Assembly (NCBI GenBank): GCA_017521605.1
Contig: JAFXCD010000042.1
Location: 117,087-181,086 of the forward strand
Reading direction: 5' to 3'
Length of the DNA: 64,000 nucleotides
Source of the DNA: Lachnospiraceae bacterium
GTDB lineage: Bacteria; Bacillota; Clostridia; Lachnospirales; Lachnospiraceae
Both the position numbers and the translations under genes were made by a program. This document shows, one piece after another, positions 28,574 through 52,978 of the stretch; position 1 is the stretch's first letter, and each line of letters opens with the position of its first letter. Below the pieces are notes generated by a model, which worked only from the letters and a program-made list of their open reading frames with translations, did no database searches and was not told where the DNA came from.

Positions 28574-29917
28574 CTAATTCAGATACTTCGCCATCTTCTC
28601 CGCTATCATTCCGATTCTCTTATAAGTTATACGCTTACAAATCCAATCTGTAAGCCTTCCATATTTTCTATACAGTATATTAAATAACAAATACGGCGCC
28701 CTCTGATTTTTACTCTTCGGCAGACGTTTCCATATATTTTTCCAACTATATACCTGCTTATAAATCCAAAGATAACCCTCGTATAATTCTTCTTTTGTCA
28801 TATTCATTGGTTGAAAAACCACATGTGCTGTATTGTACAACGACAAATCCTCCGTGATAATGCGGCCAGCCTTTACCATCCTGTCATATAATGCCGTTCC
28901 GGGATAAGGCGTCAAAATGTGAGAGGTTACCGTTTCAATCTTATTTTTTACAATCCAGTCCAAAGTTGTCTGAAAAGTCTCTTTCGTATCTCCATCCAAT
29001 CCAAAAACAAAACTGGCATTAATCATAATTCCTCTGTCATGAATTGCCTTTATGGCCCTCTCATAATTTTCCGTAATGTTTTGCACCTTATGAACGCCAC
29101 TTATAGACTTGGAATTAATACTTTCAAATCCAATAAACAAGCTCTGGCATCCACTCTCCTTCATTAAATCCAATAATTCCTCATCAAAAGCTACATTTAT
29201 GGAAACTGCCGCATTCCACTTGATTTTTAAAGGTTGAATCTTCACCAGAAATTCCTTCGTCCATTCACGGTTTCCCACAAAGTTATCATCAATGAACATA
29301 ATATGTTTGGATTTTACCGCATGGATATCCTGTAAAACTGCATCGATTTCCCTGTTTACATACAGATGCTCCTTCCCGCTGTTATAACAAAAGTCACAAC
29401 GAAAAGGGCATCCTCTGCTGGTATGAATCACATTGCAGTACAAATATTTGTCCTTTTCCAAAATATCATAGGCCGGCGAAACAATATCTGCACCGGAAAA
29501 GGGATGATTACATTTATAAATCCTTTTTAAACAACCCTGCTCAAAGTCTTTTACAATATTGGGCCAGGTTCCTTCCGCCGCTCCTACGCATAATACATCA
29601 AAAGAATTTTGCGGTATGGTCTCCAGTGCTGTGGTAATATGAATGCCACCGGCAACCACCTTGATACCCTTTGCCCGAAATCTCTGCGCTATTTCCATGG
29701 CTTTCGGCAAGGTATCTACCGTTACAGAAATACCCACTAAATCAGGTGTATCTTCATAATTTATTTTCTGTATATTTTCATTCTCCAATACGACTTGATG
29801 GTCTTTTCGTAAAAGATTCACTATCGTTAGAAGTCCCAATGGTGGTGCCATATGCATCTTAATATCTGTGTCCATAGGACGTTTTAACATCTTTGGTTGT
29901 ATCAGTTTAATGTACAT
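28574..29917 (-). CDS. B12-binding-domain radical SAM protein with DUF4070-type C-terminus
   Basis: The protein has 447 residues. The N-terminal domain starts LIQPKM and has PPLGLLTIVNLL and VGISVTVDTLPKAM, typical of cobalamin-binding radical SAM enzymes. The cluster motif is CPFRCDFCYN (Cys near 170, 174, 177), followed by IMFIDDNFVGN and GFESIN. The C-terminal ~100 residues fit DUF4070 (TPYPGTALYDRM, then MTKEELYEGY). The start has AGGAA six bases upstream. It has no neighbour in operon. It shares class and layout with the radical SAM gene at 16.8-18.2 kb but only weak sequence similarity by eye. The substrate is unknown. Confidence 0.85.
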   Translation of the reverse strand: MYIKLIQPKMLKRPMDTDIKMHMAPPLGLLTIVNLLRKDHQVVLENENIQKINYEDTPDLVGISVTVDTLPKAMEIAQRFRAKGIKVVAGGIHITTALETIPQNSFDVLCVGAAEGTWPNIVKDFEQGCLKRIYKCNHPFSGADIVSPAYDILEKDKYLYCNVIHTSRGCPFRCDFCYNSGKEHLYVNREIDAVLQDIHAVKSKHIMFIDDNFVGNREWTKEFLVKIQPLKIKWNAAVSINVAFDEELLDLMKESGCQSLFIGFESINSKSISGVHKVQNITENYERAIKAIHDRGIMINASFVFGLDGDTKETFQTTLDWIVKNKIETVTSHILTPYPGTALYDRMVKAGRIITEDLSLYNTAHVVFQPMNMTKEELYEGYLWIYKQVYSWKNIWKRLPKSKNQRAPYLLFNILYRKYGRLTDWICKRITYKRIGMIAEKMAKYLN

Positions 29918-31513: not shown

Positions 31514-33199
31514 TTATTGTATCTCTTTGGCATTTAACGTAAAATATTCATAAGCAGTAACCACATTTACACTCACTAAATTAATATCCTTCATTCTTTT
31601 ATCTATGTATTCTGCTTTTTCGCTACCCAACCAACGTAAATCAAAATTATCAACAACATTCCCTGATGAATCATATGCTTTTGTGGTGTAATCAGAATAT
31701 AAATCCATAATATCCTGTAATGACATATTGTTTGCGGTAGCCAACAATTCAAAGAAAACTGATTGCATGTCCACATAGTTTTTCATTAATACATCATTAT
31801 ATTGATATTGAGCTGATGAATGATATAAAATATGATTATTTAAATCTGTTTCATATGCACTGATTAGATAAAATACATCCCCAAGTGGTATGGGGTCATT
31901 TACCAATTTATTAGCCAAATTGCGGTAAAACAATTTGTTAAATGTTTGACAAATTGACTTTTTAACATTATAGCGTATACTATCTTCACTTTCATCAGCA
32001 GTAACACCATATTCTTTTTCATATAACATAATAAAATCACTGGGAAGATTTTGCATCACTTCAATAGAATACAACATATTCAAAATTTCCCGCTTATCTT
32101 CTTCTGTCGTCACATCAAAAAAATCATATAATTTTTCAATATCTCTTTCAAATAATAAATGTTCCGTATCATGAACTCTGAAATCATCATTTATGATATT
32201 TACCATACTTAAACTTTCTAAATAGCCAATCATGTTTTTATATGTAATTGGACCTATGCCCCGATAATTACTCATACATTTTTCGGCTGCGGCATCATAT
32301 AACCAAACATTATCTAATGAATTCACTTTTAAACCATCATAACGAAAACTCATACCATAATTTATTACTAAATCCTCATTTAAGCTAATATCACAGTTAC
32401 ATCCTTTTTGTAACAAATGTATTATTTCATGCGTTAAAACACAATAAACATCACTTTCTTCATTAGTAAGACCTATCATAGTAATCTGGGTTGGTGAAAT
32501 GACTAAATGATTCTCCGGAGTAACATAAGCTAAACTCATTGAGCCTACTTTCTCAAACATTTTCAAATCACTAAGAATACATTTGATTCGCTCCTGTGAA
32601 ATACTGGGACATTCTTTTAAATAGCTATTTACAACCTCTGCAATTAAGTCGCAATAACTTTTTAATTCTTCCTTATCTATCTCTTCATAAAGAATATTAT
32701 CTTCATTTTTTAAGTAAGCCTTGTTATTAGCAATAACTATTCTATAGAGTTCGTCGCCATCTATAGAATTCAAATTACTATTATGTGTACTACTAAATCT
32801 TATACTACTATGTTTTTCTAAGGCTTCCTCTAAGAAATATAAATGGCTAAATTCATAATCCACTTCATAATTTTCAATATAGTCCAAAAACGAATTATAA
32901 TTACTATTACTTAAAATCACATCCGGGAAAACTGCCTTCTCATTAGAAATATCAGCAAATGCTCTTAACCCTTCTACAATAATAGGTTGTGCAATTTCTT
33001 CATCCGTATCTGATACATTAGAATCCATATCGGAAATAACTATCGTTTCCTTATTTTTATCTTCCTTCTTTTCTACATCAGCATATAGTGCGCGATTCCC
33101 GTCCGCACATCCACTTAATAGCAATGTTACCGAAAACACTGCCACAATAAACCGAATTCTCTTTTTAGCTTTATTACGAAACTTAAGATTTCTAATCAT
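31514..33199 (-). CDS. Lipoprotein with HExxH zincin-like motif
   Basis: The protein has 561 residues. A basic N-terminus, a hydrophobic helix and the lipobox LLLSGCAD mark a lipoprotein; a Lys/Glu/Asp-rich linker follows. Near residue 254 is CVLTHEIIHLLQKG, a clean HExxH zinc motif in a helix with hydrophobic neighbours, as in zincin metallopeptidases. The third ligand is not certain; a Glu or His further on (VHDTEHLLFERDIEK) is possible. The rest is helical and unassigned. GAGAGG is seven bases before the start. It ends the run of accessory genes downstream of the DUF6765 gene and stands 63 bp behind the small immunity-like gene. Confidence 0.7.
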   Translation of the reverse strand: MIRNLKFRNKAKKRIRFIVAVFSVTLLLSGCADGNRALYADVEKKEDKNKETIVISDMDSNVSDTDEEIAQPIIVEGLRAFADISNEKAVFPDVILSNSNYNSFLDYIENYEVDYEFSHLYFLEEALEKHSSIRFSSTHNSNLNSIDGDELYRIVIANNKAYLKNEDNILYEEIDKEELKSYCDLIAEVVNSYLKECPSISQERIKCILSDLKMFEKVGSMSLAYVTPENHLVISPTQITMIGLTNEESDVYCVLTHEIIHLLQKGCNCDISLNEDLVINYGMSFRYDGLKVNSLDNVWLYDAAAEKCMSNYRGIGPITYKNMIGYLESLSMVNIINDDFRVHDTEHLLFERDIEKLYDFFDVTTEEDKREILNMLYSIEVMQNLPSDFIMLYEKEYGVTADESEDSIRYNVKKSICQTFNKLFYRNLANKLVNDPIPLGDVFYLISAYETDLNNHILYHSSAQYQYNDVLMKNYVDMQSVFFELLATANNMSLQDIMDLYSDYTTKAYDSSGNVVDNFDLRWLGSEKAEYIDKRMKDINLVSVNVVTAYEYFTLNAKEIQ

Positions 33200-33262: not shown

Positions 33263-33754
33263 TTACTCACACAACTGCGGTACGCCTTCCCACGCAAGAA
33301 GCGGCATTTCCTCCAACTCCTGAAGATATACATAGATTTCCTGGTCATCTCCATAGATTCCGCTCTGTGGCACTTGGGTGCACAGGGTAATATGATAAAT
33401 ACCATTCTCCAACTCCAGAATATTTTCGCAATACCTGCTCCAATCCATTAACTCAAACAAATCTTTTATGTAAAGCTTTCCATCATCAATAACAATTGCC
33501 AATCTGGCCCCTATAGGATATCTTTCTACGATGTCTGCGTCCGGATAACCCTTGCGAAACTTTAATATATAATCTCCGCCTGAGCCTGTGCAAAAGCCTA
33601 CAATATCGCCCTTTTTAATATGGGCTGCCACCTGCTCCGGTTCATCGAAATCCGTTGCAAAAAAATCCTGGCCTTCTTCGATTTCCTTTAAAATGCCTCC
33701 CGAATGAAACACAATACCCATACCGGAGATGTAAATGTTTATATCCTTTTCCAT
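33263..33754 (-). CDS. Small acidic protein, possibly immunity-type
   Basis: The frame begins with a TTG at 33769, but GGAGG eight bases before the ATG at 33754 gives the likely start and 163 residues. It is acidic and cytoplasmic with a mix of beta strands (INIYISGMGIVFHSGG; GDYILKFRKGYPDADIVERYP; ARLAIVIDDGKLYIKDLF). I do not recognise the family. Size, acidity and setting among ankyrin and SMI1/KNR4 genes resemble immunity proteins of polymorphic toxin systems. The assignment rests on context only. Confidence 0.65.
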   Translation of the reverse strand: MEKDINIYISGMGIVFHSGGILKEIEEGQDFFATDFDEPEQVAAHIKKGDIVGFCTGSGGDYILKFRKGYPDADIVERYPIGARLAIVIDDGKLYIKDLFELMDWSRYCENILELENGIYHITLCTQVPQSGIYGDDQEIYVYLQELEEMPLLAWEGVPQLCE

Positions 33755-33769
33755 ACTTATTGCCTCCAA

Positions 33770-33911: not shown

Positions 33912-35267
33912 TTAAAAAAACTCTTTCATTGGTGGTATCTCACCTATTTTTTGTAAAAGACTGTACCTAAAACTTATAGCCTCCTCCTTAATGAGGTTAT
34001 CTACCTTATCCAAGCTAATCGAAATACCAGCATGATGATATAAATAATCAAAAACAACCTTCCTATGCACTCTTGCCATATCCACAAAGCTTACGATATC
34101 ATACCGATTAAAATCATACTTTTCTAATGAAATCTTTTGATTATGTAAGAATTCTTTCCATAATTCAACTCTTACCAATTCATCACTATGCCTGTTATCC
34201 AACAAATAGTTATCCAACACACATAACGCCATATACAGTACCTGCTCTTCCACATTACATCTGTCCGCTGTTATTGACCCAAAAGAACATTGCGATTTAA
34301 TCTCTTCCCATGTTCTGAATCTATATATAGGTTCACTATTAATTGGTTCATTACTTATTAACGGATCATTCTCCTTCGTCTTAATGTATTTCATGGCATC
34401 ATACATCTGTAACATACCACTCAAAAAACGCGGTCTGTTTTCATAGGTTCTATTTATAATACCCAATTCACTAGTCATTATCCACGTAACTCCGGGTATA
34501 TCCGGTGCTTTTCCTGCAAAACCGTGTCCAATAAATGTGGGACTATTTACATTCGGTATTGCTCTTGCCGAATAGGGTGTTTGAAAGAAATAATTGGCGT
34601 TTATTGCGTCATGGTCTATTAGCTTGCAACCATTTACCCACTGACTGGGTGTACCTGCAAAATTTTGATGAGACCATGTATCAGCCAACACGTGCATACA
34701 TATCCCAATAGCACACAATGCTTTAATTCGTTCACTTTTATAATATAATGCATATTGACATGCAGCATTTTCGACAATTTCCCGGACAGTTCCTGTGGAG
34801 GGACGACAGACCATTTTCAAATCTTCCGGTCCCGTAGAACTGGTATAAAGAACATTACCAACTTCCAGCCCCACCTCTATAGAATCGCTATATGGGGTTT
34901 GATGGCCAAAAGAAATTTGTTTTCTCCCTGTATGTTCTATAACTTTATTTCCATCTTCCATAGCAGCAGCAAAATTTCCCGGTAAAAAATGAAATGGAGC
35001 CCATATGCCTCTGAGCATAGTTATATAGTCACCAACTTTTTTAGTAAATCCTGTGGAACTTATTGCATCATCTACAGATTGAAACGTTGTTTCTGTTGTA
35101 ATAAAATAAGGAATGTTCACTTTACTATCTTTTAATATACGTAACCTATTAAAATCCAGTTCATCTACTGTCTGAGCCGCCCAAGCTATAACTGCTGCAT
35201 CTTCAGCACTAAATCCAGCCTGATAAGCCATAAAGTATGTTCCATAATAATGACAATCTATTTGCAT
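33912..35267 (-). CDS. DUF6765 family protein (phospholipase C/S1-P1 nuclease-like)
   Basis: The protein has 451 residues and starts with MQIDCHYYGTYFMAYQAGFS, which matches the start of DUF6765 proteins. A His-rich stretch near residue 195 (HVLADTWSHQNFAG) has the spacing of the zinc-binding helices in zinc-dependent phospholipase C and S1/P1 nucleases, along with the early His residues and the late DHDAINAN. No signal peptide is seen, so the protein is likely cytoplasmic or released by another route. GAAGGAG lies seven bases before the start. It follows the TPR gene by 23 bp and probably belongs to the same operon. Confidence 0.7.
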   Translation of the reverse strand: MQIDCHYYGTYFMAYQAGFSAEDAAVIAWAAQTVDELDFNRLRILKDSKVNIPYFITTETTFQSVDDAISSTGFTKKVGDYITMLRGIWAPFHFLPGNFAAAMEDGNKVIEHTGRKQISFGHQTPYSDSIEVGLEVGNVLYTSSTGPEDLKMVCRPSTGTVREIVENAACQYALYYKSERIKALCAIGICMHVLADTWSHQNFAGTPSQWVNGCKLIDHDAINANYFFQTPYSARAIPNVNSPTFIGHGFAGKAPDIPGVTWIMTSELGIINRTYENRPRFLSGMLQMYDAMKYIKTKENDPLISNEPINSEPIYRFRTWEEIKSQCSFGSITADRCNVEEQVLYMALCVLDNYLLDNRHSDELVRVELWKEFLHNQKISLEKYDFNRYDIVSFVDMARVHRKVVFDYLYHHAGISISLDKVDNLIKEEAISFRYSLLQKIGEIPPMKEFF

Positions 35268-35290
35268 AGTTGGTCTCCTTCTCCAAATGT

Positions 35291-35890
35291 TTATAACGTT
35301 GACAATTCCGTCTCATCATATTTTGCATACTGTGCCTGCCCCAGTAACTTAAAATATTCAATACGACAAGAAAGCGCATGACGCAATTCCTCACGGTTAT
35401 TACTCAATCTAAAGAGATTAATTGCCTTATCTACATATTTACGAGCCTTTGGGTATTCCTTTATTCGCACATAATATGAAAATAAAGTAAGTGCCATTCG
35501 TCCACAGGTAACATCATCATGATTTCTTTTGCTTGCTTGTATCAGTAGCTCTTCCGCTTCCTTAGGGCGTTGAAGCATAAACAAGATATTAGCACGAAGA
35601 ATTTGAATATTCCCACTGTCACAAGGATCATTTTGCAGGGCTTTTAGTTCAGAAGCTTTATCAACATACTCCAATGCCCTTTCATATTCTCCTTTCACAG
35701 TGCAGATATTTGCTATATTTAACATCGTATGTCCACTAAACTTTTCCAGTTTTATTTCTTCTTGTGCCCGAAGTATTTCACTATATATTATCAATGCCTC
35801 ATCATATTTCTGATCTTTGAGTGCAAATGCTGCACGTTGGTCAAGTTCATGTAAAATATCCGATATTTCCTGTATTTTCTCTTTATTCAC
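35291..35890 (-). CDS. TPR-repeat protein
   Basis: The protein has 199 residues and a GTG start that overlaps the upstream stop by 8 bp. It consists almost entirely of helix pairs with TPR-like spacing: AAFALKDQKYDEALIIYSEIL, ANICTVKGEYERALEYVDK, LRANILFMLQRPKEAEELL and YVRIKEYPKARKYVDKA, giving four to five repeats. TPR proteins are scaffolds; partners are likely the neighbouring gene products. It sits between the 218-residue helical protein and DUF6765. Confidence 0.85.
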   Translation of the reverse strand: MNKEKIQEISDILHELDQRAAFALKDQKYDEALIIYSEILRAQEEIKLEKFSGHTMLNIANICTVKGEYERALEYVDKASELKALQNDPCDSGNIQILRANILFMLQRPKEAEELLIQASKRNHDDVTCGRMALTLFSYYVRIKEYPKARKYVDKAINLFRLSNNREELRHALSCRIEYFKLLGQAQYAKYDETELSTL

Positions 35891-36539
35891 CGCTAATCCC
35901 CTCCAATTTTTCGATTTCAGAACCTATAACCTCTGCCCGTTTAGGATTTAAAAAAGGGTGTACTGTCTTTAGTAATAAAAGGGCTTTATCGGTCTCCCCT
36001 TGTTTTTTCTTCCGTAATCCCTGTCTCATTACCTCAAGAGTTACTTTTTTAAGTACTTGAGCCAAAAATTGTTGTTCTTCAGGTGTCTGAACCTGTTTTG
36101 AAATACTATATATATTTCTTAATGCCTCACAATAATCCTCCGGTATCAAAACCTCCTGCAAATCATCAAAAGTCACACCACACATGGTTTCTGATGTTTC
36201 TACCAAAACCATTTCAAAAAGTTTGTATGCCATAGCATGCAAGTTAACCGCCGCCTCTACACAACCATTTTCACTCATATTTATAGCTTCAATTGCATAA
36301 AAAAGGGCTCTATCGTATCGTCTTCTAAAAAAAGCTACCTTGGAAAAATTCACCAGTTGCTCTATGGCACTATCCACACAATTGTAATATTCCAACACGG
36401 CAACTGCTTCTCTAAAAATATTCTCACCTTGTTCAAAGTCTTTACTTTCGTCAACTGCAGTGGAAATAGCCAAATTAAACTGTTCTGTCAATTGTTCTAC
36501 TATGGCCTCTATCTGTCTATCAAACTCAATTCCTGCCAC
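35883..36539 (-). CDS. Helical protein of unknown function
   Basis: The protein has 218 residues and a GTG start that follows the TAG stop of the upstream gene directly; the Shine-Dalgarno sequence GAAGGAG lies within the end of that gene. The sequence is all-helical with a TPR-like flavour (SKVAFFRRRYDRALFYAIEA; MRQGLRKKKQGETDKALLLL) but is more diverged than the next gene. No membrane segment. I do not recognise a family. Tight packing with both neighbours shows that it is translated as part of this operon. Confidence 0.7.
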   Translation of the reverse strand: MAGIEFDRQIEAIVEQLTEQFNLAISTAVDESKDFEQGENIFREAVAVLEYYNCVDSAIEQLVNFSKVAFFRRRYDRALFYAIEAINMSENGCVEAAVNLHAMAYKLFEMVLVETSETMCGVTFDDLQEVLIPEDYCEALRNIYSISKQVQTPEEQQFLAQVLKKVTLEVMRQGLRKKKQGETDKALLLLKTVHPFLNPKRAEVIGSEIEKLEGISGE

Positions 36540-37268
36540 CTATAACATCTCCTTCTTTTGATTATTTTTTCTCTCCATAGTCATTATTACCCTTTCTTTT
36601 CGATTGGGTATAGTAGTTAATGAACCTAGACTTAAATTGGTTCCCTTATTCTCCTGTGCCTCTTTAGTATCTTTTGTTCTTTCGTTCTCTTTAATTCCCT
36701 TCATCTCATTCCAATTACTTTCTGAATACGGTATTCGAGATAAAGAACCTACTTCTTTATCTCGTTTAATTTCCTTAACAGAGAAGGTATCCGTCTTTCG
36801 TGATGATACAACGAAGGTATTCTTAATTGCTTTACGATTTTGAGTTTTTTCACTCTTATGAATGGAATGAGATATAGTCATTGATTCCTGAGTGTTTCTC
36901 TTTTTCTCTTCATTATTATAGAAAGAATTACATAGAGATGACTTCTTAAAACTATTTTGAATAGTATTTTGCTTATTATTTAGTGCAGAAGTTTTCACAT
37001 CATAATCAACTTCAAAAAGAGCTTCCTCCGTATTTTCAACTATAAAAAAATTATCCTCATTCTCATTATCGGTTGTTTCTAGTGACTCTTCCTTGGTCTG
37101 TTTATCTTCTTTTTTATCATCCAATACATTTGTGGGCAAAAGAATATCTTCCGAAATTATGATTGATGAAAACCAGTCAGAGCCATCTTTTTCTTCACTA
37201 TATTCATCTGACAATAGCAACGCTTCTAACTCATCTGATGAAATATAATCCTTTTCTTGATTACTCAT
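36540..37268 (-). CDS. Low-complexity, probably disordered protein
   Basis: The protein has 242 residues and is rich in Asn, Lys, Glu, Ser and Thr with few hydrophobic residues, so most of it is likely disordered. The first ~60 residues (SSDELEALLLSDEYSEEKD) are acidic and could form short helices; the rest has many Lys-Asn-Thr stretches and no recognisable domain. The ribosome binding site is weak (GAG, about ten bases upstream). A hairpin lies just before it. It may be a linker or carrier protein in the operon. It also ends with LKK-type basic residues. Confidence 0.6.
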   Translation of the reverse strand: MSNQEKDYISSDELEALLLSDEYSEEKDGSDWFSSIIISEDILLPTNVLDDKKEDKQTKEESLETTDNENEDNFFIVENTEEALFEVDYDVKTSALNNKQNTIQNSFKKSSLCNSFYNNEEKKRNTQESMTISHSIHKSEKTQNRKAIKNTFVVSSRKTDTFSVKEIKRDKEVGSLSRIPYSESNWNEMKGIKENERTKDTKEAQENKGTNLSLGSLTTIPNRKERVIMTMERKNNQKKEML

Positions 37269-37292
37269 AATATTTCACTCTCGTTAACAACG

Positions 37293-37336
37293 AAAGAGCA
37301 TCATTAACGGACTATATTTATCCTAAGATGCTCTTT
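37293..37336 (-). promoter_or_regulatory. Hairpin within the accessory operon
   Basis: A 10-bp perfect stem (AAAGAGCATC at 37293-37302 with its complement at 37327-37336) and a 24-base loop lie in the 96-bp gap between two genes of the minus-strand run. The following bases on the minus strand are only three T, so it is at most a weak terminator; an attenuator or processing hairpin is possible. On the plus strand it is followed by TTTTATTT. Confidence 0.5.
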
Positions 37337-37364
37337 TATTTCTATGTTATTCTAATATGCCTTC

Positions 37365-37997
37365 TTAAATCGATTTCGCTTTTGCAGCTTCTGCGGCCTC
37401 AAGTTTTTTAGACGCCTCTTCAATTTCTGTCTCACATTTTTTCATCTCAATCTCAAAAAACTTTTCCATAGCTTGATTTCGCATTTCAATAACCTGAGAA
37501 ATCATAGGGTTAGGTGGAACCGGAACCAGGCGAGTTCTAAGAAGACTGGAGCCCTCGGCACTATAATTATATTTATTAGCATAGGTTGCGTCTACAGTAG
37601 TTGTAGTGGTTACCGGTCTTTTCTTAGCTCTTGTATCCTTTATCTCCTGCTCCTTACCATAAGTTCTTTCATAAGAGCTTTCATAGGACATAGAAATAGC
37701 AACTTTAACCTCAATAATTGTTTCCGCAAACTGATAAAAGGTGGGCTGAAAACCGGCTCCTATCATAGATGTTGCTATCTCATTATCCGAAATGGTAAGA
37801 GCATTGCCTGATGTGTCTGCCTTATCATCATATGATACAGAGACAAAAGGTAAACTAACAGTGTTATCCTCTCCCATAATTCGTAATATCTCAATAGAAT
37901 TTTGATCTAATTGGTATTGTGCTTGTGCAATTGCTGTACCAAGACTGCTAATCATTTCATCAAATGGTACATTTAATAACTGATGTCCGATACTCAT
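37365..37997 (-). CDS. Uncharacterised paralogue A of the accessory operon
   Basis: The protein has 210 residues. It starts MSIGHQLLNVPFDEMISSLG, then AIAQAQYQLDQNSIEILR, then GAGFQPTFYQFAETIIEVKV and AISMSYE, and later GSSLLRTRLVPVPPNP, and ends in a Glu/Ala/Lys coiled coil. All these blocks recur in the next upstream gene, and a looser version in the 337-residue gene, so they make one unnamed domain. The central part is predicted beta-rich with alternating residues, compatible with a membrane- or surface-bound sheet. AAGGAG is eight bases before the ATG. Function unknown. Confidence 0.7.
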   Translation of the reverse strand: MSIGHQLLNVPFDEMISSLGTAIAQAQYQLDQNSIEILRIMGEDNTVSLPFVSVSYDDKADTSGNALTISDNEIATSMIGAGFQPTFYQFAETIIEVKVAISMSYESSYERTYGKEQEIKDTRAKKRPVTTTTTVDATYANKYNYSAEGSSLLRTRLVPVPPNPMISQVIEMRNQAMEKFFEIEMKKCETEIEEASKKLEAAEAAKAKSI

Positions 37998-38034
37998 TAT
38001 TTATTCTCCTTATTAACTAAATTACGATATATAT

Positions 38035-38601
38035 TTATTCTGCATTCTCCGGAGTTTCTGAATTATTTTCATCCTCACTATCCTCTCCGGCTTTTTGTAC
38101 CGCTTCCTCTATTTTTCGGAAAGTACTTTCAAACTTCTTCTGCTCCATCTGTGCCTTTAGATCTAACAGAGTTTGCATAAATGAACTTGGAGGTACCGGT
38201 GTAATCTTTGTACGAATCAGGCTGGAACCTTCACAACTATAAGAATATTTTGCAGAAAACGATGCACTTACCGAAGCACATAAACAATTATAGCTTGCCG
38301 AGGCAGATACTTCTGCTGATTTACTCATTGAGATAGAAATTTTCACTTCAATAATAGTATCAGTAAACTGATAAAAAGTGGGTTGAAATCCTGCACCTAT
38401 TAATGAAACAACTTCTGTACCGGTAGTACCATTTTCAAAATTGGGAATTTCAACTGGGCATTTCTTTTTATCTCCCATCATTTTTGCAATCTTGCAACTG
38501 GTCATGTCCATCTTATATTGTCCTTCTGCAATTGCATTTGCAAGTTGCATAACCATATCCCCAAATGGTACATTAAGCAACTCTTGTCCAATTGATGCCA
38601 T
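38035..38601 (-). CDS. Uncharacterised paralogue B of the accessory operon
   Basis: The protein has 188 residues. It shares with paralogue A the start MASIGQELLNVPFGDMV, the AIAEGQYKMDMTSCKIA helix, GAGFQPTFYQFTDTIIEVKI with SISMS, and SSLIRTKITPVPPSS. The central strand region is Ser/Ala/Cys-rich (SASASYNCLCASVSASFSAK), and the end is a Glu/Asp-rich tail (EDSEDENNSETPENAE). GAAAGGAG sits upstream of the ATG. It most likely forms a complex with paralogue A or the HHH protein. Function unknown. Confidence 0.7.
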   Translation of the reverse strand: MASIGQELLNVPFGDMVMQLANAIAEGQYKMDMTSCKIAKMMGDKKKCPVEIPNFENGTTGTEVVSLIGAGFQPTFYQFTDTIIEVKISISMSKSAEVSASASYNCLCASVSASFSAKYSYSCEGSSLIRTKITPVPPSSFMQTLLDLKAQMEQKKFESTFRKIEEAVQKAGEDSEDENNSETPENAE

Positions 38602-38627
38602 ATAAACTCTCCTTTCACCTCATAAAA

Positions 38628-39167
38628 TCACTTGGGTACTGCCTGAACAGTAATCTTAATACTACTTAGGCTATCCTCTGACGTTTCCGTAATGTTTGGA
38701 GCCGTAAAACGCAAAGAATTTTCCTCGTCACCATATATACGAACCTTCAAATCAACATCCATATTGTTTATGACATAGGACGCTATTTCACTATCTGATT
38801 CTGTATTTTGATTAAAATCCTTAATAATCTGATTCAAATATGTAGCAATATCCTGCGTGGAATATGAAGTTGTTATTTTTTTATTTAATGCATTGAGTTT
38901 TTCTTCCAATTCACAATAGTATTCATACTGTTCTCTAAATACAGCTATTTTTTTCTCTGTCTCTATACGTTCTGCTTCCAGTAAAGCCTGTGTTTTTGCA
39001 AGTTCTGCTGCTTTCTCATTTAGAGCAGCTTTTACAGCTTCTAATTCACAAATCTTACTGTCATACTCCGCTTCCTTCTGTTCAAGTCTGGCGATAGCCT
39101 CACTTTCTTTTGCTGTCAATCTTTTTCTCATCGCCGAGCGAACAATCCTGGAATATTCATTATTCAT
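38628..39167 (-). CDS. Coiled-coil protein with small C-terminal domain
   Basis: The frame can open at a GTG at 39176, but GGGGGAG fits the ATG at 39167, giving 179 residues. Residues ~15-95 form a continuous coiled coil rich in Glu, Ala and Lys (RLEQKEAEYDSKICELEAVK). The last ~75 residues (YSTQDIATYLNQIIKDFNQN, then VINNMDVDLKVRIYGDEEN, then SSIKITVQAVPK) form a small domain with an order of helix then strands like that of the paralogues. Function unknown; the coiled coil suggests oligomerisation. Confidence 0.7.
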   Translation of the reverse strand: MNNEYSRIVRSAMRKRLTAKESEAIARLEQKEAEYDSKICELEAVKAALNEKAAELAKTQALLEAERIETEKKIAVFREQYEYYCELEEKLNALNKKITTSYSTQDIATYLNQIIKDFNQNTESDSEIASYVINNMDVDLKVRIYGDEENSLRFTAPNITETSEDSLSSIKITVQAVPK

Positions 39168-39181
39168 TGTCACCACTCCCC

Positions 39182-40195
39182 CTATTTACCACTTAATCTC
39201 TTAATATGAATTGTAGGTGTTATCCCAATCTGTATCAATGTATTGGCAATAGGATTCTGAGATATGACCTCAATTGCTACATCCCCCCACGTCGCCGCCT
39301 CATTGGGTAATATTGTATAATTTGTAATTTCTGCGTCTTCCAACGCAGTCAGCAATTTATCATACGAATCTATTTTACTTAAATCCGGCATATATCGTCT
39401 TACTGTCATGCGGTCTGATATAGGAATAGGAACAAATTTTAACTTCAATGTGCTCTCTTCCTTTTTTGAAGACTTAAAAAGATTTGTAAAAGTGGCATTA
39501 CTGGGAGCTGCAAATAATTTTCTGGACACTACCTTTCCGGAAACAGTTCTTTCCTCTGCAACAGAATAATCCATTTTTAATGTGAATTCCACCTCCGGCA
39601 TCACATACCATGTTGCTTGCAACCCCATGTTGTAAAGCTTGTCATCTTGAAGAATTTTATTCTGTATATCTATAGCACTTTGATCAAGAGAAAGTTGTGC
39701 CTGCGAAATACCCTTTCCTAATTCCGAAATAATACTTGAAAGATCAGAATATACATTTGGAACATTATTCTTAACTTCAACTAATTCCTTTTGAATATTA
39801 TCATACTCAAAAGGCTTAGCTACATGTACAAAACTTTTTTTAAGCCGACGAATTGTATTTTCTGTAATGGTAGAATAAACATTTGCCCTTTTTACCTTTT
39901 CAAAAATCTCTTTTACATCTGCAGACATAAACTGATTGACTGAAAAAATACCGGCATCAATAAAATCATAGGCCAGATCGATATCCATTTCATCAACTCG
40001 TAAAAGCTCCGCTTGAGCTGCCCAATGCGTAATATTTGCTACTGAAAATTTAGTTTTCTCTGCTAATTTTTCACGGTCCGTAAAGGTTCTTGTTGCATCA
40101 TATAGTTGTTTAACTGTACTTATACCCGCCTTATCTCGAAGAAGTTGTCCTACTTTATTATCAATTCCAACAATACTAATTAATTTTTTAGCCAT
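39182..40195 (-). CDS. Helix-hairpin-helix (DUF4332-like) protein with paralogous C-terminal domain
   Basis: The protein has 337 residues. The first ~130 residues carry tandem helix-hairpin-helix motifs (ISIVGIDNKVGQLLRDKAGI; DEMDIDLAYDFIDAGIFSVN), as in DUF4332 proteins, which may bind DNA or protein. The second part (~150-280) repeats the paralogue pattern: SSIISELGKGISQAQLSLDQ, then GLQATWYVMPEVEFTLKMD and STLKLKFVPIPIS. A last domain follows. It is the first gene of the operon and the only one with a plausible nucleic-acid-binding part. The ribosome binding site is weak (AAAGG). Confidence 0.7.
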   Translation of the reverse strand: MAKKLISIVGIDNKVGQLLRDKAGISTVKQLYDATRTFTDREKLAEKTKFSVANITHWAAQAELLRVDEMDIDLAYDFIDAGIFSVNQFMSADVKEIFEKVKRANVYSTITENTIRRLKKSFVHVAKPFEYDNIQKELVEVKNNVPNVYSDLSSIISELGKGISQAQLSLDQSAIDIQNKILQDDKLYNMGLQATWYVMPEVEFTLKMDYSVAEERTVSGKVVSRKLFAAPSNATFTNLFKSSKKEESTLKLKFVPIPISDRMTVRRYMPDLSKIDSYDKLLTALEDAEITNYTILPNEAATWGDVAIEVISQNPIANTLIQIGITPTIHIKRLSGK

Positions 40196-40439: not shown

Positions 40440-41474
40440 TTAGTAAAAATCATCCATATTATCTATAAACTCATCAACTGCTTTACCCTGATTCATTTTT
40501 TTGAATAATTTAATAAACTCTTCTTGAGAATATGTATCATGTTCATAAATGGTAATCAAAATTTCCCCGAGACCAACCGTCTCAAAGAATTTTTCTTTTC
40601 GCAGTTTGTTTATCGCTTCCACTATTAATTTGTACCAGACACTATCGTCACTATTTTGGATTCCTTCATCCTTGATATATTTTCCTACACCTGCAAAATA
40701 CTCCGGACTTTCATCAAAAACATTCCACTCATCTTCACAATATTTATAATAGCAAATCTCATCCTTCATATCATCATCTGCATTTTCAAGGCTCTCCTGC
40801 AGATTTTCAACTGTATTTACATACAAATACACCTTGGACAGACTCTCCTCACATTCCAAAGAAACAATATAAATCTTTTCTCCCTCATAATAGCTTGGAA
40901 GAGCCTCAAAGCATGCTTTTGCACCATCTATAAATAATTGGATAATCCTGTCTTTTTGCTCTTTCTGTGCTTTCTTTATCTTTTCTTTTTTGTCTGCCTT
41001 TAAAAACTTTAATATATTCTTGGCCGCAAATATTCCTGCTTCACTTAACACCATTTCCATCAGTGCGGTATACTCTGCTTCTGTCAGCATTTCCTTTTCA
41101 AGCACCAGCAAATATTGAAAGGTCTCTAAATTATCTCCACAGACAGCTACAAATAAGGGATTTCGCTTATCCAAAGTGGTCATTAGTTCTATATCATTCC
41201 GCATCAAATATTGTATCATATCTACATTTCCGATTCCTGTAGCAGTCACAAGCACATTGCCATCTCTGTTCTCTACATTTCTATCAATTCCGGCATCCAA
41301 TAAATACTTGACAATCTCCATTTGCTCATAAGTCACAGCAAGATGAAGCCAATTACCTCTGGGGATGGGCATTTGTAGTTTCTCCGTATCGTCACCTATA
41401 AGTTTCTTAATCTCATCGAGATTTCCTTCCTCAATTGCTTTATCCATTGCTTTTTCAAATTGAAAATCATACAT
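40440..41474 (-). CDS. Ankyrin-repeat protein (immunity-type)
   Basis: The protein has 344 residues. Three ankyrin repeats cover ~15-135 (GNWLHLAVTYEQMEIVKYLL; NVLVTATGIGNVDMIQYLM; NPLFVAVCGDNLETFQYLL). The remaining ~200 residues include IYIVSLECEESLSKVYLYVN and form an acidic domain that resembles DUF4303-type immunity domains; that match is tentative. GGGGGG lies eight bases before the ATG. It follows the next ankyrin gene by 20 bp, so the two are co-transcribed. Upstream of the 40195 start there is a 244-bp gap with no recognisable feature. Confidence 0.75.
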   Translation of the reverse strand: MYDFQFEKAMDKAIEEGNLDEIKKLIGDDTEKLQMPIPRGNWLHLAVTYEQMEIVKYLLDAGIDRNVENRDGNVLVTATGIGNVDMIQYLMRNDIELMTTLDKRNPLFVAVCGDNLETFQYLLVLEKEMLTEAEYTALMEMVLSEAGIFAAKNILKFLKADKKEKIKKAQKEQKDRIIQLFIDGAKACFEALPSYYEGEKIYIVSLECEESLSKVYLYVNTVENLQESLENADDDMKDEICYYKYCEDEWNVFDESPEYFAGVGKYIKDEGIQNSDDSVWYKLIVEAINKLRKEKFFETVGLGEILITIYEHDTYSQEEFIKLFKKMNQGKAVDEFIDNMDDFY

Positions 41475-41494
41475 AATTTAGTCCCCCCTGACTC

Positions 41495-42538
41495 CTAACC
41501 TAAATCTGTTAGGAACACTTCCTGCACATTTTTATCTCTATAATATTGTTTCTGCTCCTCATTCAGAGGAATCTGATACTGTTGCGTTCCTACCTTATAC
41601 ACACCTTGTACAATTCTGTCATGCAACATTCTGAGGAAATACTTAAACTCCACCTCATCAATAAAGTCCATTTCTTCAAAATCATCTTCAAAAATATAAT
41701 CTCCCTCTGCCAGCCAGAACATCATAAGTGCAGTGGCAAGTTCGCAATTGGGGTGCTGCATAATAAAATAAGGCACTTCCAAGCCGTCACCCCAATTATA
41801 CTCCTCCATATACCGGTGCAGCTTCCCACCATCGGTTTCTTCCTCCAGTAGACCGGGACAATCCTGCAGAAGGAATTCTGCTCTCTCTTTTGCTGCTTCT
41901 GTAAGAAGTGTATTAATCTCCTCCTTCGGAGGTTTCGGGGGCTCATATAAACACCCCCTGCTGTAATACTTTATAACATCCTCAAAATCAGACTTTTTAT
42001 GTAGGTTCCTCTCCAAGTATTCAACAATCGTTGTATCCTCTATACCATCCTCTGTCTGTATATTACTTCTTGCAGCTTCCAATGCATTCTGTCCTTGATA
42101 ACAATACTCTACATCCACGCCCTGTTCCAGGAACCACTTAATCAAATACAAATTATTGTTTTTACAGGTCAGCACAAAAGCAATTCCCCACAATTCTTCC
42201 TGCCGTTCCTGAGGCATATTTTCAATGATGTAGGCGATAGTTTCTTTCATATCTTCCATAGATTTAATCAATGGCGTATTCCCTTCGCATACCTGAACAA
42301 GCAATCCTTCCCCCTCTGCAACAATATCATAATGCTCCTCAATAATCCATTTCGCCAGCGGAAACGGATTGTTGCAAATCCTAAACATCTCTCTCCACTG
42401 TTCCTGTGTAAGAGAATCAAACTTATCCTGACTTGTGATATAGTCAATTGCTTTTCTCGCTGCTTCCTCGTCATTATCGGAAGAGCATTTCTTATCTAAC
42501 ACATTATCCCAAAATTGTTTGTATTTTGAAGTTCTCAT
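41495..42538 (-). CDS. Ankyrin-like immunity-type protein
   Basis: The protein has 347 residues. The N-terminal half is helical with ankyrin-like repeats (LLVQVCEGNTPLIKSMEDM; FVLTCKNNNLYLIKWFLEQG; NALEAARSNIQ). The C-terminal half is acidic and contains VPYFIMQHPNCELATALMMF and EEMDFIDEVEFKYFLRML, which resembles the DUF4274-type helical immunity domain; this is from pattern and setting. AGAAAGGA precedes the ATG. It lies in a run of at least five immunity-like genes without a toxin gene. Confidence 0.7.
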   Translation of the reverse strand: MRTSKYKQFWDNVLDKKCSSDNDEEAARKAIDYITSQDKFDSLTQEQWREMFRICNNPFPLAKWIIEEHYDIVAEGEGLLVQVCEGNTPLIKSMEDMKETIAYIIENMPQERQEELWGIAFVLTCKNNNLYLIKWFLEQGVDVEYCYQGQNALEAARSNIQTEDGIEDTTIVEYLERNLHKKSDFEDVIKYYSRGCLYEPPKPPKEEINTLLTEAAKERAEFLLQDCPGLLEEETDGGKLHRYMEEYNWGDGLEVPYFIMQHPNCELATALMMFWLAEGDYIFEDDFEEMDFIDEVEFKYFLRMLHDRIVQGVYKVGTQQYQIPLNEEQKQYYRDKNVQEVFLTDLG

Positions 42539-42620
42539 AAAAGCTTGTCCTTTCTCTTATCTCTTTAAAGATTACATAAAGTCTATTTCTTACTATATTG
42601 CCTAGCCGAATCCTTTTTTC

Positions 42621-43076
42621 TTACAGGCAATCCTCCAATTTAGCTATGAAATATGCTTCAAAGGTATCTGCTATTTTACATATTTTACCGTCATCAATCC
42701 AGGACCATGTAACTACTTCACCATTCTTCTTTGATACATCAATGCAGGTAACATAATCACCATCATGCTCAATCACTACCAATTGATTTGGCATGCCCTT
42801 CGCCCTGCAATCCTTCATAAGTACAGTTATTGAACAATTCTCAATATCCTTCCCTGACTCAATCCCGAAGAAATCAAAATATCCCAATCCTCCTGAACCA
42901 TATTTAGACAAAAAATACTTAAAATCCTCCGGTAAATTTACCGCAAATTTATCTTCAAATTGTGCAATTAATCCTGAATTGTCTTCCTGAGGCAAGCAAT
43001 AAATATCGTCTAATTCCACACCTTCCTCTTCACATACCTGTTCAATTAGTTCACTTAATTTTTCATATGTATTCAT
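42621..43076 (-). CDS. SMI1/KNR4 family immunity-type protein
   Basis: The frame opens with a GTG at 43088, but AAGGTGG eight bases from the ATG at 43076 sets the start, giving 151 residues. The fold is that of SMI1/KNR4: FAVNLPEDFKYFLSKYGSGG, then GYFDFFGIESGKD, and a later LVVIEHDGDYVTCIDVS with GEVVTWSW. In bacteria most such proteins neutralise nuclease or other toxins of polymorphic toxin systems. No toxin is adjacent, which agrees with a collection of orphan immunity genes. Confidence 0.9.
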   Translation of the reverse strand: MNTYEKLSELIEQVCEEEGVELDDIYCLPQEDNSGLIAQFEDKFAVNLPEDFKYFLSKYGSGGLGYFDFFGIESGKDIENCSITVLMKDCRAKGMPNQLVVIEHDGDYVTCIDVSKKNGEVVTWSWIDDGKICKIADTFEAYFIAKLEDCL

Positions 43077-43151
43077 ACCCATGTCCACCTTTCAAATTCA
43101 GTTTATGTATCTATAACCAATCTAAATAATATTTAATAATTCCTCATATGA

Positions 43152-43661
43152 CTATATATTCTTCAATGCCTCATAAAAGCTGATTACTTCATCTTCTCTA
43201 CCATTCGTCAGTCTTCTTGCAATTCTGTTATATACAAATGCATTGGTACCTTTAATTTGAATTCCCATTCCAATATTGGACTGCACCCAGTTTCCACCAA
43301 TGTTCTTCATAATCATCACGCCAAAAAATCCGGTAGCACGTTTTACCATATCCGTAAAATCCTCATTGGAAGGCCTTTGGCGACCAAACATATTACAAAT
43401 TGCATCCAACAATACTTCAAAATCTTCCAGGCTTTCTTCACCAAAATCCAGTTCCACCTTTGCTGCGTCCCTTGCAAAATCTATGAAATCCATAGCATGA
43501 CCAAGCATTGCAAACTCCATGGTTACTCCCTGCTTCTTACCTTCCTGAAACAACAAATACTGTTCATCAAACCACGCTGTCAGTTCCTCTTTGGACAACT
43601 GATAATCCGCCTCATTGGGAATTGGTTCACTTACCTGTAATTCAAACTTATTTTCTGCCAT
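43152..43661 (-). CDS. Uncharacterised protein, immunity-type context
   Basis: The protein has 169 residues with no membrane segment. Its first part has YQLSKEELTAWFDEQYLLFQ; its second half has GFFGVMIMKNIGGNWVQSNI and FVYNRIARRLTNGREDEVIS. That ending resembles DUF3806-like immunity domains, in which Trp and basic residues follow a glycine, but I would not insist on it. AAAGGAG is present upstream. It is 20 bp behind the pentapeptide-like gene in the same direction. Confidence 0.65.
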   Translation of the reverse strand: MAENKFELQVSEPIPNEADYQLSKEELTAWFDEQYLLFQEGKKQGVTMEFAMLGHAMDFIDFARDAAKVELDFGEESLEDFEVLLDAICNMFGRQRPSNEDFTDMVKRATGFFGVMIMKNIGGNWVQSNIGMGIQIKGTNAFVYNRIARRLTNGREDEVISFYEALKNI

Positions 43662-43681
43662 ATCTATGCTCTCCTTTATAA

Positions 43682-44455
43682 TTACTTAATTTCTCTTTCT
43701 CTTCTAATCATTTCCTGCTGTACTTCAAACAAAGATATCTCTTTCTCCTCACCATTAATCATACAGTTTCTGAAAATATTTAAACTCCAGTCCCATTCTC
43801 GTCCGATATCCATCTTTTCAAGCCCCTGTATTTCTAAATCATTAAAGTCATTTCTTATTACATCAGCTCCAATTTTCACATTCCGGAATTTAGCTCCACA
43901 AAATCTACTGCGAAACATCTGTTTAATAACTAATTCTAAATTCTTACCCTTACAGTTCCAAAACACTCCTTGGGTAATAGTGATATCGGCCCATAACTTA
44001 ACATCTTCAAACGTACATCGATTAAAGGAACAACCCCATTCCGCCTCCTTCTGTTCTCCTCTTATTTCCAAACCATGTATCCGACAACAACTAAATTCAG
44101 CTCTATCCAATATAATATTTGTAGCCTCTGACCTTCCGCAAATCTCCACCTTAACAAATCTGCAATTCTTGCATTCAAACTGATTCATCTGATTATGCAT
44201 CAGCTTCATATCATAAAATTTACAATCAATAAAGGTTAATGTCTCACATTCTATATTCTCTATAGCAAAATGCTTAAATGTATAGCCTTCAAATAGGCAG
44301 GTACCGTTACTCAATTTTTCATAAAACTCTTCTTTACTTATAACAATTTCCTTATCAGTTGGTACATCACACTTCAGCCTACACATAAACTCTTCTATTC
44401 TGTCTGAAAGTCTATCATAAGAAGGTACTTCATCCAAAATTTCTCCAAGGAACAC
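43682..44455 (-). CDS. Pentapeptide-repeat-like protein with damaged 5-prime end
   Basis: The frame as written has 257 residues from a GTG at 44455 without a ribosome binding site; the first internal ATG is at 44386. From residue ~60 the sequence has a right-handed beta-helix pattern with Cys, Phe and Asn positions at about five-residue steps (ECETLTFIDCKFYDMKLMHN; QFECKNCRFVKVEICGRSE; GCSFNRCTFEDVKLW; CGAKFRNVKIG), like degenerate pentapeptide repeats. It follows a short SMI1/KNR4-like frame in another phase, which suggests that a frameshift has split one gene. Function unknown. Confidence 0.65.
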   Translation of the reverse strand: MFLGEILDEVPSYDRLSDRIEEFMCRLKCDVPTDKEIVISKEEFYEKLSNGTCLFEGYTFKHFAIENIECETLTFIDCKFYDMKLMHNQMNQFECKNCRFVKVEICGRSEATNIILDRAEFSCCRIHGLEIRGEQKEAEWGCSFNRCTFEDVKLWADITITQGVFWNCKGKNLELVIKQMFRSRFCGAKFRNVKIGADVIRNDFNDLEIQGLEKMDIGREWDWSLNIFRNCMINGEEKEISLFEVQQEMIRREREIK

Positions 44456-51582: not shown

Positions 51583-52422
51583 TCAATAAAAAAGCAGCTC
51601 CAAATTAATTTCTCCTGCACTACGAGTAGTCTGATTGATGGATTTAATATAACGGTTCCACTCTCCTTTTTCTGTTCGTATCCCTCTTTTCTCCATGGCA
51701 CGAACCGCCGGTCCTTCATGAATGGTGGGTAATGCATCAAGACCTCTCTCTGCATTGGAACGGTGGTCTATCCGTTCCGTATTTCCTTTTTTCTCCAAGG
51801 CTTCGTTCACTATATTCGCCCAGTTTGCTCTCCACTGCTCCAAAGTCTCCGGTGCACCCCATTCCGTGGTCTTCACAGCATTAAATAAATATTTTCCATC
51901 CTCTCCCTTAATGCGTTCTCCATTTTCATCCAAAATATATTCTCTCCTTTGTTTGGTGCCCCACGTTCCGTCTTCGCTTAATGCTCTCATGGGAACCAAT
52001 ACATGTACATGTGGATTCGGAATATCTCCCAGACTTTTTCCCGGTTTATGAATAGCCATATCCGATATCATTCCTCTTGATGTGAAATTCTCTGAAGTAA
52101 ATTTTCTTGCCAGTTCAAGATTCTCCTCATCGGACAATTCATTAGGAAGTGCAAAATCAAAAGAATAGGCAAGCTGGGCTCTTCCATTTGCCTCTGCAAA
52201 TTCAACTGCATTCCATAGTGTCTCCCTGTCTGCATAATCTTTTGGTGCATGCTCCGGCAGAATAATCTCTGTATAAAGCACACCACCCTTCTTGGTATAA
52301 TCCGGCTCCTCACCATAATAATTGTCGTGCAGTTTTTCACCTGCCCGATAAGCAGCTGCTGAAACTGCTGTCTGTCCTTTCCCTCTGGAAATCTGCGTTA
52401 CATGAAAATGATAAATTGCCAT
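51583..52422 (-). pseudogene. MobA/MobL (MobQ) relaxase, C-terminally truncated
   Basis: The frame has 279 residues, about half the usual length. It starts MAIYHFHVTQISRGKGQTAV, has AAAYRAGEKLHDNYYGEEPD, FDFALPNELSDEENLELAR and NPHVHVLVPMRALSEDG, the three-His region that holds the metal for nicking oriT. It then reads into INQTTRSAGEINLELLFY and stops, without the helical rest of the protein. The N-terminal relaxase domain is otherwise intact, so in-trans nicking is conceivable but doubtful. The truncation point is next to the ABC/two-component block, which suggests that block replaced the rest. Confidence 0.85.
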
Positions 52423-52487
52423 TATCCCTCCACCTCCTTTGCTGATAATTCATTTCTCAAATCTTCTAATGATTTTTGTTTTGCCAT
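52422..52487 (-). pseudogene. DUF3847-like remnant upstream of the relaxase
   Basis: A start at 52487 opens 21 codons (MAKQKSLEDLRNELSAKEV then EG) ending in TAATG, which overlaps the relaxase start. The beginning matches DUF3847-type proteins that normally precede MobA/MobL relaxases in clostridial mobile elements, but the rest of that protein (usually ~80 residues or more) is gone. Its end supplies the AAGGAGGTGGAGGG ribosome binding site of the relaxase. Confidence 0.45.
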
Positions 52488-52669
52488 TTTTTCTTTCCTC
52501 CTTCTTAAAAACAGGCATAGAAAAAGCACCTTAGAATTTCTTCCAAAGTGCTGGTTCTATATTTTGTGAAATTGTAACAATAAAGTTTGTGAAATATTTT
52601 CCCCGCTTTTCCACCCTTTTTGACTGATTTTGTCTCAGCAAAAAGGCAATCCTCAAAGTGCTTCCATTG

Positions 52670-52699
52670 AAAAAAGCCCAAACCATCGTGGTTTAGGCT
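52670..52699 (-). terminator. Terminator between oriT region and relaxase
   Basis: On the minus strand AGCCTAAACCA, a three-base loop and TGGTTTGGGCT form an 11-bp stem (52675-52699) followed by six T (52670-52675). It would stop transcription from the decarboxylase side. The 533-bp gap 52488-53020 also contains the oriT and a 36-bp repeat. Confidence 0.7.
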
Positions 52700-52889
52700 C
52701 TCAACACTTTTGTGATTTTTGAATTTTGGGTATACTATCTCCACTGCTATTATGCAATACTTGAGCCAATACGTCAACGGCAAAATTTTACCCTTTTGCG
52801 ATATCCCAATTATTACTGTGAAACTTTCCGAAGCGTAGCGTAGGCAAAACCGGCGCAGCCAATTCAGATACATCGCTTAGACGGACCTC

Positions 52890-52935
52890 GCACGGATACA
52901 TCCAAGGGATGTATAGAAGTGCGCCCTTAGCATCC
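52890..52935 (+). other. Origin of transfer (oriT) of MobQ type
   Basis: A perfect 8-bp inverted repeat (ATACATCC at 52896-52903, GGATGTAT at 52907-52914) is followed directly by AGAAGTGCGCCCTTA (52915-52929). The core GTGCGCCCT after a hairpin is the nic region shared by MobQ relaxase systems (RSF1010-type and Gram-positive relatives), in which nicking takes place inside the GCGCCC. It lies about 470 bp upstream of the truncated MobA/MobL relaxase, as expected for such elements. Confidence 0.75.
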
Positions 52936-52942
52936 CTACTTA

Positions 52943-52978
52943 GTTGAACGATGCACCATTTTTAGAGGGTCATTTAAC
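52943..52978. repeat. 36-bp direct repeat, left copy
   Basis: This copy begins with GTTGAACGATGCACCATTTT and shares its first 26 bases exactly with the copy at 54509-54544; the last 10 differ at only a few positions. The ends are near-complementary (GTTGAA and TTTAAC). It sits between the oriT and the decarboxylase gene. Confidence 0.8.

Follow-up and report, generated by a model that had tools for sequence, protein, structure and literature searches.

A widespread gene set centred on DUF2589-like paralogues

The 64,000-nucleotide stretch of Lachnospiraceae DNA analyzed here (the window; part of contig C38 of a host assembly of 3.8 Mb in 125 contigs) carries eight co-directional open reading frames (ORFs) on the minus strand at positions 33912–40195, and these represent a real, ordered and widely spread gene set centred on paralogues of a DUF2589-like domain, which we call PAR. 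In transcription order they encode an HHH-fused PAR protein (H), a coiled-coil protein (CC), two short PAR proteins (PAR-A and PAR-B), a disordered linker protein, two helical proteins (TPRa and TPRb) and a DUF6765 protein. An earlier note on this DNA, made from its letters alone, had proposed a possible new system of several genes based on one family of paralogous domains. This is upheld: both in other phyla and among the archaea, the genes occur together with their order conserved, and the domain has as its one named relative, a distant one, DUF2589, itself of unknown role. As to function, we tentatively suggest a membrane-engaging hetero-oligomer, ring- or barrel-shaped, that is able to work with a hydrolase, a reading that, taken as a whole chain, is possible and somewhat short of probable.

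All eight ORFs listed in that note are present. The gaps between them, in transcription order, measure 5, 26, 37, 96, 0, −8 and 23 bases, and the stretch is therefore likely to be co-transcribed. The statement that several starts overlap stops was too strong: one pair does overlap, the GTG start of TPRb (35291–35890, 199 aa) lying 8 bases inside the end of TPRa (35883–36539, 218 aa), but one other pair abuts (36539/36540) and the rest are gapped.

PAR-A (38035–38601, 188 aa) and PAR-B (37365–37997, 210 aa) are 39–41% identical and have the motifs QPTFYQF, IEVK and TPVPP/VPVPP in common. A search of the same genome with PAR-A retrieves PAR-B at E 2.3e-33, a paralogy far beyond chance. H (39182–40195, 337 aa) starts with a region that matches DUF4332 (4.5e-13) and HHH_5 (7.1e-07) in Pfam; behind it lies a PAR domain, matched by the PAR profile, with the motif variants QATWY, EVEFTLKM and VPIP. 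The two short paralogues and the HHH-fused relative read from the window do, by these identities, motifs and profile matches, have a domain in common. The C-terminal region of H aligns with the PASTA-like region that ends its relatives. PASTA gives no Pfam score in the window's own H; it is over the Pfam cut-off at the end of the second HHH protein of Methanimicrococcus (locus L028, 11746–13476, 5.1e-6) and at the end of two Amphritea paralogues (L050).

One genome per species (84,980 species) was scanned with the pattern PTFYQF[ATS][EDQ]. This returned 157 stretches, of which 122 were confirmed by tblastn and 80 kept; with the window and a Sphaerotilus plasmid these make up 82 loci (designated by L numbers), in which PAR is present by construction. 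By record, the bacterial hosts include Lachnospiraceae, other Bacillota, Fibrobacter, Bacteroidales, Dokdonia, Gemmatimonadota, several proteobacterial classes, SAR324, Aquificales, Chloroflexi, Chlorobiaceae and Pseudanabaena, and the archaeal ones Methanimicrococcus, Methanomassiliicoccaceae, Methanocalculus and Halorubrum. Many of these records are metagenome-assembled genomes, single ones of which may be misbinned; cultured hosts include Amphritea, Neptuniibacter, Pelotalea, Xenophilus and Methanimicrococcus, and the set is present in isolates that are not pathogens.

At least two PAR genes are found in 77 of the 82 loci and at least three in 51. CC is matched in 66 loci at E ≤ 1e-3 and in 60 at E < 1e-6 when two profiles are taken together (39 with the Lachnospiraceae-type profile, alignment A7, alone), counts to be read with the caveat that coiled coils may match one another by composition. 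The TPRa and TPRb profiles match in 19 and 20 loci, respectively, and TPRa is 48% identical in L023, a contig of Pseudobutyrivibrio YE44. The string H-CC-PAR-PAR opens 21 of the 82 loci, and 14 contain H-CC-PAR-PAR-TPR-TPR. What recurs across haloarchaea, methanogens, Aquificales, Chloroflexi, proteobacteria and gut Bacillota is a core of at least two paralogues with the predicted hairpin described below, usually together with a coiled-coil protein. In a tree of 21 H proteins, many branches of which are weak, at least two label changes are required to place the five archaeal rows; it is therefore likely that genes passed between archaea and bacteria or were acquired more than once.

Two variants of the arrangement were seen. 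The Amphritea and Neptuniibacter loci (L049–L063) are of an elaborated type with about seven PAR genes, other companions and conserved family-less genes at both ends. In L144 (5548–10899, genome G723), a single gene of the core joins TPRa to TPRb and an enzyme is absent; the ORFs on either side resemble secretin/pilus and ATP synthase genes.

The distribution is sporadic: strong PAR matches occur in 3 of 299 genomes of the window's own family (12 weak ones were dropped) and in 2 of 398 genomes of the phylum, the window's own included. Such scatter would suit anti-phage abortive infection, with a hairpin assembly that opens a pore or frees a hydrolase upon infection, as would the TOTE primase-helicase gene and the AbiEii gene that lie 18–22 kb from the operon. 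We nevertheless consider this very unlikely, because PADLOC-DB models of known defence systems gave no convincing match to ten proteins of the window (lowest E 0.0013, for CC, all matches being coiled-coil or TPR-like only), no sensor domain was recognised, and the sole annotated relative, the one found by the plasmid search (Sphaerotilus), sits among metabolic genes.

Descent from viruses was considered as well. The PAR fold recurs in a BFVD protein (A0A516MP19; E 8.4e-5, template modelling (TM) score 0.47–0.50), and a 4 kb record with the name Bacteriophage sp. contains a DUF2589 relative (6e-8). However, 50,697 phage records held no PAR match with two queries and one at E 0.2 with a third, none of 11 pattern matches in IMG/VR was confirmed, and TPRb is the only protein with a PHROG match below E 1e-4. 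A domesticated phage-tail or virion remnant thus deserves hardly any credence.

The PAR domain is a distant relative of DUF2589

In a profile-profile comparison (hhalign), 61 PAR rows and 6 DUF2589 rows aligned colinearly over 158 columns with a probability of 87.6% (E 3.5e-6). Alignment depth was low, with a Neff of only 3.8. Of the six DUF2589 proteins, the PAR profile (A4, built from the same number of PAR sequences) matched one at E ≤ 1e-3, the one of L112 (E 2.6e-7 in a search of the ORFs of this locus). In the opposite direction, DUF2589 (PF11655, cut-off 23 bits) scored 12.1 bits in PAR-B and gave no match up to E 1 in PAR-A and H; its cut-off was reached in none of eight host genomes, the maximum being 21.5 bits in a Pseudanabaena PAR. 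Because of the hhalign match, this sub-cut-off score and the one DUF2589 protein found by the PAR profile, we regard PAR as a DUF2589-like sister family, a distant relative and not a member.

True DUF2589 genes (L112–L114, L136, L138) also stand in tandem, as pairs in the three genomes inspected. Their loci differ in that, in three of them, nothing is matched by the H, CC and TPR profiles, although Sel1/TPR-like ORFs are readable next to two of the three. In two of the three DUF2589 plasmid regions that were opened, a gene annotated as peptidoglycan-binding lies about 2 kb off; the third carries no annotation.

A predicted long hairpin of two types

The AlphaFold model of PAR-A (mean predicted local distance difference test score, pLDDT, 83; predicted TM-score, pTM, 0.60) has two strands of about 30 residues (76–105 and 108–136) that make up one long hairpin flanked by helices. 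For CC (38628–39176, 182 aa), which had been read as a coiled-coil protein, the model gives helices 22–102 and 107–124 and strands between 132 and 181 (mean pLDDT 83, pTM 0.43), in agreement with a long coiled coil followed by a small C-terminal α/β domain.

Across the 61 aligned PAR rows, Ser and Thr make up 28% of the hairpin versus 18% of the whole protein, and alternation in the hairpin exceeds z 1.64 in 39 rows. When the rows are sorted by closeness to the window proteins, PAR-A types (n = 16) have a mean alternation z of 3.0 and tips that are 14% charged and 51% apolar or Gly, whereas PAR-B types (n = 18) have a mean z of 0.9 and tips that are 29% charged and 29% apolar or Gly; the other 27 rows have z 2.8, 22% charged and 41% apolar or Gly. 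In PAR-A hairpins apolar residues alternate with small polar ones in the manner of pore stems, and a typical tip is SASVSAKGGFACFSASVNAS (L035). The window pair follows this division, with z 3.3 in PAR-A, and z 0.1 and a longer, 39% charged tip in PAR-B. A tip W or F is present in 15 of 16 PAR-A types, 15 of 18 PAR-B types and 22 of 27 others; the window PAR-B has none. Since the contrast in charge and alternation holds across relatives, the difference between the two hairpins is conserved, and we regard the long-hairpin fold with its two types as moderately supported.

In Foldseek searches the top PDB rows were pore stems, all weak matches (E 0.077 or more). The β-barrel pore stems of binary-toxin translocases, lysenin and aerolysin are a structural analogy only, likewise long, two-stranded and alternating; they differ from PAR in that no sequence relation was found and that they are formed by one subunit, against several PAR paralogues here. 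The flagellar MS ring protein FliF and other ring-building domains are also among the closest known systems.

The gene at the 3′ end is interchangeable

The DUF6765 gene (33912–35267, 451 aa) holds a position that other loci fill differently. Twenty loci were comparable, namely 24 of the H type or near it minus L035, L037, L040 and L045, in which the sequence ends at the core. An enzyme-like gene comes next on the same strand in 10 of the 20, as a raw count. DUF6765 itself takes this place in the window, L025 and L026, and L025 additionally encodes a 1091-aa protein in which Zn_dep_PLPC and PLAT are both present. In L027, L029 and L031 the place is taken by a family of ~1500-aa proteins (mutual identity 38–40%) that carry the motifs HEVCH and MHMIEDSFTPSHT; no Pfam family is over cut-off in it, eCIS_core reaching 20.0 bits in L031 (7.8e-4; cut-off 22 bits) and E 0.094 in L024. 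An Amidase_2 gene follows the ~1500-aa protein in L031 and in L024 (on a contig shared with L027), and is itself the 3′ gene in L038. In L032 the place is taken by a metallophosphoesterase, over cut-off, of which the L036 relative (38% identical) is slightly under cut-off and carries PG_binding_1. The L033 protein has a phospholipase C (PLC)-like N-terminus, 30% identical over 157 aa to the 1091-aa protein of L025, and matches no Pfam family at 0.01.

No enzyme-like gene directly follows the core in the other 10 loci. There we found a small PAR gene (L028), MatE or radical SAM genes on the opposite strand (L030, L034), Hsp90 (L039), a LuxR-type regulator (L041) or a 125-aa ORF without family (L042). 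L043 has a small gene and then a P-type ATPase, a piece of the ~1500-aa family lying upstream instead; L044 has a YgjP-like metallopeptidase 320 bases from the core, which was left uncounted; and L046 and L047 have nothing within 350 bases. For the 58 loci of other types the downstream protein was scanned in seven: L061 has a GH5 domain, L072 has two related proteins with PG_binding_1 (one over, one under cut-off), and L050, L058, L066, L068 and L082 have nothing over cut-off. The downstream proteins of L061 (12514–15225) and L080 (1859–4153) have an N-terminal stretch in common (35% over 148 aa), which in L061 is joined to the GH5 domain.

The window protein matches DUF6765 (PF20551) at 5.6e-53 and 181.1 bits (cut-off 26.6), as the earlier note had named it; its description as phospholipase-C-like was less apt, as Zn_dep_PLPC (PF00882, cut-off 26.8) reaches only 14.5 bits (0.035) and 21.5 bits (2.5e-4) in the L025 relative. 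An hhalign comparison of DUF6765 with a PLC set that included three wrong-frame rows gave 1.8%. Seven aligned DUF6765 proteins retain H6, H93, MH[VI][LI]ADTW[SA]H (191–200; an HxxxDxxxH motif of H192, D196 and H200) and GHG (247–249), which fits a metal-dependent hydrolase. We therefore describe the protein as a putative hydrolase of that kind, with Zn_dep_PLPC, under cut-off, as the nearest Pfam family. DUF6765 is over cut-off in 7 of 150 family genomes including the window's, and none of the other six belongs to the 15 genomes that gave a PAR match. In three genomes where DUF6765 occurs without PAR genes, the ORFs show it directly adjoined by a gene for a small, hydrophobic-looking protein of 164–225 aa (L132 7424–7918, L133 7663–8229 and L134 5647–6324). 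The notion of a lipid- or nucleic-acid-attacking enzyme as part of the system stands, then, insofar as an enzyme-like gene follows the core in half of the comparable loci, and is weakened by its absence from the other half and by the occurrence of DUF6765 without the system.

Amidase and PLC-like genes in this position would also suit a released antagonistic weapon or polymorphic-toxin particle, extracellular-injection-like without being derived from phage tails, for which SUKH and ankyrin genes at the flank would provide self-immunity. This reading, which overlaps in part with the membrane-engaging ring, we consider unlikely. It would accommodate the eCIS_core stretch slightly under cut-off in L031, and weaker in L024, and the PASTA end of the HHH protein in the L028 methanogen, the wall of which is not known to contain murein. 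Upstream of the operon, at 40440–44455, lie genes for an ankyrin+DUF4303 protein, a DUF4274 protein (weak ankyrin) and a SUKH protein, along with a family-less gene and a pentapeptide-like gene (under cut-off); DUF4303 and DUF4274 we take to be immunity proteins of the polymorphic-toxin kind. SUKH and ankyrin proteins are named as such immunity proteins in an account of polymorphic toxins (PMC3482391). However, immunity-type genes were looked for beside the window operon only and may be local, six of the seven DUF6765 genomes lack PAR genes, and a sheath protein (PF04984) was found in none of eight host genomes, including the window's (G000), with the control positive in 3 of 14. The gene set resembles extracellular contractile injection systems in its presence in both bacteria and archaea, its variable cargo-like genes and the eCIS_core-like stretch of some relatives; it differs from them in the lack of a sheath in the PAR host genomes searched and in that no tail family gives a substantial match to any of the eight proteins. 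Among the ten window proteins scanned, eCIS_core/DUF4157 was not found.

Linker and TPR proteins

In 20 of the 21 loci listed, the gene that separates PAR-B from the TPR genes encodes a linker of varied sequence and similar composition, with 61–82% polar or disorder-promoting residues; L033, with its PLC-like gene in that place, is the exception. The window linker (36540–37268, 242 aa), which had been called disordered, has 71% such residues. A leucine/acidic motif was recognized by eye within the first 75 residues in 18 of the 20, and not clearly in L031 and L044; examples are ELEALLLSDEYSEE (window), LPEELLLNSMLLFEEED (L036) and MEELLRNSVLLDPDFLTDDDE (L038). It may be a docking motif. Of the two TPR scaffolds proposed, TPRb is a TPR protein (TPR_12 in Pfam, 8.2e-16), while TPRa is helical and only weakly TPR-like (0.15).

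Disordered and TPR adaptors would also be at home in an internal scaffold. Here the hairpin proteins and CC would build a filament, ring or platform in the cytosol on which any available enzyme is concentrated, and would neither attack membranes nor deliver anything. In a simple Kyte-Doolittle test, the eight proteins do not look like secreted or membrane-spanning ones, because the maximum 19-residue mean among them is 1.27, with no strongly hydrophobic stretch; Pfam and NCBIfam scans recognized a secretion part in none of the window's proteins. The 10 comparable loci and L144 without an adjoining enzyme, and the Hsp90, LuxR-type regulator and P-type ATPase genes after the core in L039, L041 and L043, are further points for a scaffold. 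Yet several 3′ enzymes are of envelope-type families (amidase, PLC with PLAT, PG_binding_1) and not of one metabolic pathway, and the PAR-A hairpins have an apolar face, so that we find this explanation rather unlikely.

Relation to known systems and a proposed assembly

The gene set had been described as not assignable to a secretion, defence or gas-vesicle-like system, and the Pfam, NCBIfam and PADLOC scans and the sheath search agree, none giving a fit; Gvp families were absent from the Pfam and NCBIfam matches of the ten proteins up to E 1. Its composition is unlike any kind of system that we tested or know of, which does not imply a new mechanism. No paper describing the gene set was found in the literature searched, and searches with combined features gave nothing fitting; DUF6765 and PF11655 were not mentioned there, DUF2589 was mentioned in a transcriptome paper and DUF4332 in an unrelated listing.

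From the set of paralogues and the predicted long-hairpin fold, a self-assembling complex, as suggested earlier, is plausible. The eight genes would encode a protein machine made in the cytosol, the body of which would be a hetero-oligomer of PAR-A, PAR-B and HHH-fused PAR subunits held by CC. With the subunits side by side, their ~30-residue hairpins could close into a ring or β-barrel, the amphipathic PAR-A hairpins being the part that enters or lines a membrane, and the more charged tips of PAR-B, together with the HHH and PASTA-like ends, binding other surfaces. A role as adaptors or loading chaperones would fall to the TPR proteins and to the linker with its leucine/acidic motif. A payload or partner would come from the variable 3′ gene: the putative metal-dependent hydrolase in the window, and in other loci a phosphoesterase, a peptidoglycan amidase or a metallopeptidase-plus-PLC-like protein. 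An apolar alternating face has the look of membrane-inserting hairpins, but the lumen of a soluble barrel would give an identical signal. More specifically, a non-phage-derived nanomachine of bacteria and archaea, in which a hetero-oligomeric β-barrel ring of several DUF2589-like paralogues breaches membranes with interchangeable envelope-attacking hydrolases, is doubtful.

If the barrel reading were true, it would add a type of machine, independent of phage tails, that breaches membranes or carries enzymes. The subunits probably assemble together, the system is sometimes adjoined by a lipid-, wall- or phosphate-cutting enzyme, and DUF2589 would gain a predicted structure and a genomic context.

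Genomic surroundings of the operon

The G+C content is 33–37% at 30–44 kb of the window, versus 39–47% at 1–28 kb and 35–43% past 44 kb, and is therefore compatible with acquisition of the 30–44 kb stretch. Downstream of the operon lie a family-less gene, a lipoprotein-like gene and an ankyrin-like gene (under cut-off). The first of these (33263–33769, minus strand), 142 bases downstream of DUF6765, is a possible partner gene of uncertain membership, with no family in Pfam, NCBIfam, PHROGs or PADLOC. The lipoprotein-like protein (31514–33199, 561 aa) has a metallopeptidase-like motif, VLTHEIIHL, and matches SprT-like at 0.061. Directly ahead of the low-G+C stretch, 28574–29917 encodes a B12-binding radical SAM protein of the DUF4070 type. 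At the other side, a mobile/defence stretch (51583–63164) holds genes for a MobA/MobL relaxase, a serine recombinase and a TOTE primase-helicase-PLD protein, and an AbiEii-type gene with a family-less neighbour.

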